Shown: positions 53,885 through 55,639 of the stretch, one piece after another
Layout: the number at the start of each line of letters is the position of its first letter
How positions within the stretch are numbered: the stretch's first letter is position 1
DNA from: Lachnospiraceae bacterium
Lineage (GTDB): Bacteria > Bacillota > Clostridia > Lachnospirales > Lachnospiraceae
Length of the DNA stretch: 64,000 nt
Direction of reading: 5' to 3'
NCBI GenBank assembly: GCA_016281335.1
Contig: JAEEIK010000103.1
Span: forward strand, 1 to 64,000
Notes under the pieces: generated by a model
Database searches by the model: none
Told to the model about the DNA's origin: nothing
The model's input: only the letters and a program-made list of their open reading frames with translations
Translations under genes and position numbers: made by a program

Positions 53885-54694
53885 ATGGGACTATTCGGAT
53901 TTGGAAAAAAAGATGATACCGGCAAAGAACAGGAGATCATCGCCATGGTCAATGAAGGCCAGGAAAAGGGTGAGATAGAACCGGAAGAAGCGGAGATGAT
54001 CGCCAATATCTTTGAGTATTCTGATAAAGAAGCGGCGGATATCATGACTCACAGGAATCATATACAGGCTTTTGAAGACAGCTGCAAGCTTAAGGATGCG
54101 ATCAGCGAGATACTGAACGGGAGCTTTTCAAGATTTCCCGTATATCATGAGGATATAGATCATATAGTCGGTATATTGCATCTGAAGGACGCCTTCAGGG
54201 TATATTATAATGCGCCGAAACAGAATCCGCCCCTGTCCGAGATAAAGGGACTGTTAAGGGAGACGGATTTTGTGCCTGAGACAAAGAATATAGACGATCT
54301 TTTCAGAGAAATGCAAAAGAATAATGAGCAGATGGTCATAGTCGTTGACGAGTATGGCCAGACTTCCGGGCTGATAGCCATGGAAGATATACTTGAAGAG
54401 ATATTCGGAAATATACGGGATGAGTATGACGAAGAAAAGGATATGATCGTAGCTTCCGATAATGAACAGACTTTTCTTATAGAGGGACTTGCAAAGCTGG
54501 AAGATCTGGAGGAAGAACTGGGCATAGATTTCGGTGAGACCCAGACACAGACCATAAACGGTTATCTGATAACTCTAATGGAAAAGATACCTGAAGAAGG
54601 GGAACACTTCGAGACAGATATAGGCGGATACCATGTCAGAGTCGAAGAGGTCGAAGACAAGAAAGTCAAAACTGTAAGATTCACAAAAGTATAA
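53885..54694 (+). CDS. CBS-domain/CorC_HlyC hemolysin-like protein lacking the membrane domain
   Basis: ADIMTHRNHIQAFE, FSRFPVYHEDIDHIVGILHLKD, VVDEYGQTSGLIAMEDILEEIFGNIRDEYDEE. Confidence 0.9.
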   Translation: MGLFGFGKKDDTGKEQEIIAMVNEGQEKGEIEPEEAEMIANIFEYSDKEAADIMTHRNHIQAFEDSCKLKDAISEILNGSFSRFPVYHEDIDHIVGILHLKDAFRVYYNAPKQNPPLSEIKGLLRETDFVPETKNIDDLFREMQKNNEQMVIVVDEYGQTSGLIAMEDILEEIFGNIRDEYDEEKDMIVASDNEQTFLIEGLAKLEDLEEELGIDFGETQTQTINGYLITLMEKIPEEGEHFETDIGGYHVRVEEVEDKKVKTVRFTKV

Positions 54695-54725
54695 GTTTGC
54701 AATTTACATAATATAATGATGCTAA

Positions 54726-54855
54726 GGTCAAATGGGCATACGATCTTCGATCGTATGATCATGATGCAGAATAAATCGCTCTGGCAAGCTGGCTTGCCGA
54801 GACGATTTTTTATGCATCATATCCAAGCGGCTATGCTGCTTGGAACCATTTGACC
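54726..54855. ncRNA. four-armed palindromic (cloverleaf-foldable) intergenic element, candidate structured RNA or cruciform DNA
   Basis: Closing stem GGTCAAATGG/CCATTTGACC; arm CATACGATC/GATCGTATG; arm ATGATGCA...TGCATCAT extended by AAATCG/CGATTT and GGCAAG/CTTGCC; arm CCAAGCGGC/GCTGCTTGG. Confidence 0.55.
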
Positions 54856-54878
54856 AATTTAACATAAAATGGTAAAAT
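54850..54878 (+). promoter_or_regulatory. predicted sigma-A promoter of yebC family gene
   Basis: TTGACC (54850-54855), 17-bp spacer, TAAAAT (54873-54878); -35 lies in the 3' strand of the cloverleaf closing stem. Confidence 0.6.
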
Positions 54879-54907
54879 ACTACATATTGTTTTAAGGAGA
54901 GAAGATT

Positions 54908-55639
54908 ATGTCAGGACATTCTAAATTTGCCAATATCAAGCATAAGAAGGAAAAAAATGATGCCGCAAAGGGAAAGATCTTTACGATACTCGGTCGAGAG
55001 ATTGCGGTTGCGGTAAAGGAAGGCGGTCCGGATCCGACAAGCAACTATAAGCTTGCTGCCGTGATAGCAAAGGCTAAGGCCAACAATATGCCTAACGATA
55101 CCATAGACAGGGGCATTAAGAAAGCTTCCGGCGAAGCAGGCAGCGTCAACTATGAGCATGTAGTATATGAGGGCTACGGCCCCGGCGGAACGGCCATAAT
55201 AGTTGAAGCTCTGACGGACAACAAGAACAGGGCTGCTGCTAATGTAAGGAATGCATTTACCAAAGGCCAGGGAAGTATAGGAACCCAGGGCTGTGTGTCC
55301 TATATGTTTGATACCAAAGGCCAGATCATCATAGATAAAGAGGAATGTGATCTGGATGCGGATACTTTAATGGAAAAGGCATTGGATGCCGGAGCAGAGG
55401 ATTTTAACGAAGAGGAAGACAGTTTCGAGATATTGACGGATCCGGCAGGTTTTGACGAGGTATTTAAAGCCTTTACGGATGAAGGCATACCCATGGTAAG
55501 CGCCGAGGTTACAAGATTACCGCAGAATTATGTTGAACTGACAGATGAAGAAGCAATAAAGAACCTGACCAGAATACTCGATCTTTTAGATGAAGAGGAC
55601 GACGTTCAGAATGTCTACACGAACTGGGATGAAGGCTAA
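54908..55639 (+). CDS. YebC/PmpR family DNA-binding regulatory protein
   Basis: MSGHSKFANIKHKKEKNDAAKGKIFTILGREIAVAVKEGGPDPTSNYKLA. Confidence 0.96.
   Translation: MSGHSKFANIKHKKEKNDAAKGKIFTILGREIAVAVKEGGPDPTSNYKLAAVIAKAKANNMPNDTIDRGIKKASGEAGSVNYEHVVYEGYGPGGTAIIVEALTDNKNRAAANVRNAFTKGQGSIGTQGCVSYMFDTKGQIIIDKEECDLDADTLMEKALDAGAEDFNEEEDSFEILTDPAGFDEVFKAFTDEGIPMVSAEVTRLPQNYVELTDEEAIKNLTRILDLLDEEDDVQNVYTNWDEG

Follow-up and report, generated by a model that had tools for sequence, protein, structure and literature searches.

The non-coding element between the genes for a CBS/CorC_HlyC protein and for YebC/TACO1 (Pfam) in the window, i.e., the whole stretch of 64,000 bp of Lachnospiraceae DNA analysed in this study, is one copy of a dispersed palindromic repeat, which probably represents a non-autonomous, MITE-like mobile element that was spread by a transposase, whose stems are largely maintained by template switching, and which now takes part in a hybrid promoter of yebC. 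In our best reading, the repeat family is new and conserved in structure, and belongs to a kind that is already known, the MITE-like palindromic repeats. It would add a new, widespread, and patchily distributed family of small mobile elements to a major gut clade.

Based on the limits of the covariance model, the window copy comprises 134 bp without coding capacity (Table 1). A check of the letters at 54726–54855 agreed with the sequence and the four stems given in the preliminary description, and RNA folding of positions 54715–54865 resulted in a four-way cloverleaf with a minimum free energy of −72.8 kcal/mol (shuffles −35.4 ± 3.6, n = 200; z = −10.4), with none of the 200 shuffles being as stable. 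The reverse strand folded equally well (z = −9.8), so that the claimed cloverleaf was confirmed with a z-score of about −10 on both strands. With inverted-repeat ends and three hairpins between them, A and C being short and B long, either DNA strand or a transcript would fold into this four-way shape. Rfam revealed no match at the gathering score for the whole window and none at E ≤ 1 for positions 54650–54920. Likewise, no tRNA or tmRNA match was found with ARAGORN, no match to the repeat in plasmid and phage collections, and no site inside the window copy in a terminator scan. The TATAAT outside the left end had been described as lacking a convincing -35 box, and both points held, as no good -35 was found upstream. 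A motif like TATAATATGATG lies just outside the ends of some copies (window 54710–54723; L076, L081, L231, and L232); it may belong to a longer end repeat, or insertion may favour sites after -10 boxes.

Table 1. Positions of the window copy of the cloverleaf repeat, its parts, and the neighbouring promoter elements.
Feature	Positions	Strand	Basis
Window copy, entire repeat in A-B-C orientation	54724..54857	+	Fold; covariance-model match of 136.8 bits
Left inverted-repeat end, 5' side of the closing stem (GGTCAAATGG, 10 bp)	54726..54735	+	Fold; pairs covary across copies
Arm A hairpin, CATACGATC-TTC-GATCGTATG	54737..54757	+	Sequence, fold; loop orientation varies between copies
Arm B, the long central hairpin, conserved at its tip GGCAAGCnnGCTTGCC	54761..54820	+	Sequence, fold, covariation
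Arm C hairpin	54822..54844	+	Sequence, fold, covariation
Right inverted-repeat end, 3' side of the closing stem (CCATTTGACC)	54846..54855	+	Sequence, fold, covariation
TTGACC, proposed yebC -35 from the right end of the repeat	54850..54855	+	Pattern scan; congener -35 at equal spacing
TAAAAT, conserved native yebC -10	54873..54878	+	Congener comparison, pattern scan
TATAAT outside the left end, putative -10	54712..54717	+	Sequence; similar motif by some other copies

A search of the host genome (G000) by blastn and then with a covariance model revealed 15 full and 2–3 shortened copies, all intergenic and scattered at unrelated places. The preliminary description had asked for such a count, and the 15 full copies identify a dispersed repeat. 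Among 34 congeners searched with the covariance model, genome G047, from a sister species, harbored 10 copies, and the others showed nothing or only weak matches; those inspected (G001, G002, G007, G019, and G040) were plain long hairpins without a cloverleaf and were discarded. The repeat was also present in the rumen Lachnospiraceae MAGs RUI374, RUI274, and Tb.RUG.499. A blastn search with the element over 40 relatives, a sample without G047, gave nothing outside the host genome. Matches to the arm-A pattern in two Christiangramia records reached at most 14 bits and were taken as chance, and a single match on a viral contig was not the repeat. At the xth-rpiB site, G047 carries an internally deleted copy (L121), in which the 5' half of arm A is fused with the 3' half of arm C; this deleted derivative suggests that the insertion predates the separation of the G000 and G047 species. 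Several further sites occupied in G000 contain no recognisable copy in G047. Copies of the window lineage diverge from each other by 15–25%. Copies of the repeat often show internal deletions or partial tandem duplications. In the flanks of L088, L089, L084, L073, and L055, the closing strand and arm A are partly tandem-duplicated beside full copies, and the L088 copy is surrounded by remnants of an older element.

At yebC, the upstream regions of 28 congeners were read and none of them (0/28) contained the repeat. Many congeners possess their own promoter of the form TTGCA(A/C)-17-TAAAAT/TATAAT, which in G047 is TTGCAA-17-TAAAAT. In the window, the TTGACC of the right end is separated by 17 bp from TAAAAT, and the earlier prediction that it serves as the yebC -35 is thus supported by the congeners, many of which have a -35 of their own at the same spacing. 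The simplest reading is that the yebC -35 was taken over by the insertion, the repeat seeming to supply part of the promoter, as far as can be judged from the sequence. The window copy would have landed at the yebC -35 and substituted the TTGACC of its own end, and yebC would now be transcribed from a hybrid promoter consisting of the -35 of the repeat and the native -10. In this case, a conserved gene seems to have received a new -35 through an insertion. Across copies, no excess of -10 boxes was found 16–18 bp from the ends, so that the yebC promoter is a particular case and not a family-wide feature. The spacer of the yebC promoter in G047 contains TAGGTCAAA, which may be there by chance or may be what is left of a lost copy.

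Strong covariation was found in all four stems. In 27 aligned copies, pairing was found in 93.5% of cells and two-sided changes in 38 of 47 pairs, including 8 of the 9 pairs of the closing stem, whose starts among the copies read GGTCAAATGG, GGATACGATG, GAGCAAATAGG, or TCTCGTCAAAAGG, each with its own complement. None of 500 shuffles reached any of the covariation measures, and the signal was lost when partner columns were slid by 1–3. The preliminary description had set two outcomes against each other, covariation pointing to a non-coding RNA and many copies to a simple MITE; this either/or fails, since both are true of the repeat.

The same shape was also found in other genera, where a broadened covariance model was used and was needed because the sequence is not conserved between genera. 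Multi-copy cloverleafs with unrelated stem sequences were detected in the genomes G364, G472, G572, G675, G623, G051, and G509 from other Lachnospiraceae genera, and ten or more Lachnospiraceae genomes besides the host contain versions of this shape with a different spelling. The nearly complete genome G364 contains about 16 copies, which, when aligned alone, revealed two-sided changes in 33 of 37 predicted pairs; for the aligned copies of G472, G675, and G623, this was the case in 37 of 50. At its foot, the closing stem reads GTCAAA(A/T)G in several genera, and the AAAAG/CTTTT of this foot is invariant in the aligned copies of the latter three genomes. The arm tips (CGATCnnnGATCG and GGCAAGCnnGCTTGCC) are best conserved. 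Since conservation is concentrated in the repeat ends and tips, selection on them is likely as well, and the strong conservation of the tips and of GTCAAA could also point to a host function. Several matches of an order-wide search (L136–L145) were rejected as long terminator-like hairpins or chance. The hairpins at these loci, from other Lachnospiraceae and relatives in the order, are very long, two-way, and terminator-like, with the tip GCAAGCnnGCTTGC and often flanked by small hairpins; they may be related to arm B or represent its parent class. Our literature searches turned up no account of cloverleaf repeats in Lachnospiraceae. It is conceivable, though rather doubtful, that the four-way junction shape itself is the inherited trait, with the stems being rewritten by template switching and a structure-reading enzyme of host or element spreading the cloverleaf independently of the transposases whose MITEs carry it. 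If true, this would be a family-wide class of Lachnospiraceae mobile elements inherited by shape.

The clearest traces of movement come from two of these genomes. In G572, the cloverleaf forms the core of a MITE of about 194 bp with 18-bp terminal repeats (TTGAGTTTCCCCATTTTT), six copies of which are 93–99% identical over this length at unrelated sites and are flanked by target duplications of about 8 bp, i.e., direct repeats such as ATGACAGG, GCTTAACA, and AGCTCCTTAG. The terminal-repeat pattern occurred 109 times, compared to once in the control. A core-less form of 61 bp, which shares the terminal repeats and has target duplications of its own, was also identified (L258 and L271; beside copies in L243 and L244); as these forms move, movement in G572 does not require the cloverleaf, which may be cargo there. 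In G051 (L253, 7381–8125), the cloverleaf lies at the centre of an imperfect palindrome or foldback of about 735 bp with a 9-bp target duplication (CAAAAATGA on both sides). Terminal repeats and target duplications in G572 and G051 indicate that the cloverleaf was moved there by a transposase, and it can thus travel as cargo or core of a MITE, at least in relatives.

The outer repeats of G572 and G051 differ from the ends of the G000 copies, and no target duplication stands out in the flank comparison of the window lineage. With G572 and G051 left out, the longest direct repeat in the flanks measured 4.58 over all sets, versus 4.37 ± 0.13 for swapped flanks. Some copies of the window lineage show TA outside both ends, no more than a hint of a TA duplication. 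The end pattern CCCATTTGANC gave 18 matches in the host genome, 17 of them at repeat copies and the other at C127:92009; among the matches at copies, no autonomous element with the ends of the repeat was seen. In G572, no long pair of terminal inverted repeats was found among the limited number listed. The assemblies are fragmented and orphan MITEs are common, so that the lack of a visible partner IS makes membership in the MITEs less likely and still leaves it tenable. The repeat shares with MITEs its short, non-coding, and dispersed copies, its inverted-repeat ends, and empty sites in close relatives. In the window lineage, too, the element would have been spread by a transposase, one that acts on its end repeats in trans.

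RNA structures are conventionally proven by compensatory change, and a functional RNA strand is expected to tolerate G.U more than A.C. In our alignment, G.T and A.C mismatches (14 vs. 8) revealed no clear strand bias at these small counts. The arm-A loops TTC and GAA are about equally frequent; 69 pairs of loops were reverse complements and 60 identical, with 21.6 expected in a test that ignores relatedness. The same test, with the same limit, gave p = 0.004 for arm C and no significance for arm B. At a site shared by G000 and G047 (L085 vs. L068), arms A and C are swapped between the species and the orientation of arm B is apparently retained (85% vs. 82% identity, a small margin in a highly palindromic arm). 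Template switching at hairpins is known to yield two-sided stem changes and loop flips (PMC8794818, PMC8604942). The missing strand preference, together with both orientations of the arm-A loop, indicates that covariation is probably kept up at the DNA level, at least partly, and we infer that this upkeep is a main source of it. During DNA replication, template switching across the hairpins would copy changes from one side of an arm to the other, flip loops, and keep the pairing. Strong covariation in a dispersed DNA repeat calls for caution in RNA discovery, as it may arise at the DNA level, and the cloverleaf repeat offers a natural system in which template switching can be tested.

Three options had been left by the preliminary description, of which the palindromic mobile repeat is borne out by the dispersed copies, the empty sites, and the target duplications of like-shaped elements elsewhere. 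A multi-copy structured RNA, i.e., a small RNA or 5'-UTR element with a cloverleaf selected as RNA and acting on the adjacent gene or in trans, is possible and less likely than a MITE-like repeat; on the whole, we regard it as unlikely. It would explain the very strong two-sided covariation and the structure kept across genera, and about seven copies are indeed located 18–27 nt upstream of a start codon. In addition, the C102 copy of G000 lies directly after TTGACG-18-TATAAT and would thus be transcribed, and a TATAAT immediately precedes the window copy. However, both strands pair equally well, the mismatches favour neither strand clearly, the arm-A loops are found both ways round, and the orientation in same-strand gene runs differs by species, being mostly sense in G000 and mostly antisense in G047. 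Moreover, most congeners are devoid of the element and no Rfam family corresponds to it.

Even less probable is a DNA cruciform or two-way terminator or insulator used by the host, in which a protein would bind the junction or tips, or arm B would stop transcription both ways. The conserved arm tips, the alike folding of both strands, and the long hairpins of relatives that resemble terminators and share the arm-B tip would fit, but the terminator scan detected no site in the window copy, and copies located at unrelated genes and patchy between species are unlike a fixed host site. The third alternative, a REP-like palindrome moved by a hairpin-reading Y1 single-strand transposase (IS200/RAYT type), is suggested by the central hairpins, the intergenic location, and two Y1 matches in the host genome, and yet hardly deserves belief. 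Y1 does not track the repeat, as it is missing from the carriers G364 and RUI374 and present in congeners without the repeat, so that the link was rejected. Furthermore, target duplications accompany the forms in G572 and G051, which is not expected from IS200/IS605 single-strand transposition. A MITE-like element remains our preferred reading.

Compared to known prokaryotic MITEs (Correia, RUP, QMITE, and MITEAba12, among others; PMC10969869), the cloverleaf repeat is likewise short, non-coding, intergenic, strongly folding, and dispersed with inverted-repeat ends, and its G572 and G051 versions share target duplications of about 8–9 bp. Some of these MITEs carry promoter parts (PMC10969869), as the window copy seems to do. 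Unlike them, it possesses three internal arms at a four-way junction and stems that are rewritten between copies and genera with pairing kept, while the window lineage shows no target duplication above swapped flanks and no partner IS was found. BOX, RUP, and SPRITE of Streptococcus pneumoniae also comprise several dispersed, folded, and clade-limited families, of which BOX and RUP have end repeats that pair with each other and SPRITE resembles a terminator (PMC3049150); they belong to another clade, and in that report we came across neither covariation nor compensatory change. REP and REPIN sequences with RAYT transposases (PMC2817692) are similarly palindromic and intergenic with hairpins in a central role, but the cloverleaf repeat is much longer and four-armed, and G364 with its about 16 copies has no Y1 transposase. 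Finally, template-switch mutation at quasipalindromes (PMC8794818, PMC8604942) explains both two-sided stem changes and loop inversion without RNA selection, though it is a mutation process and not an element.
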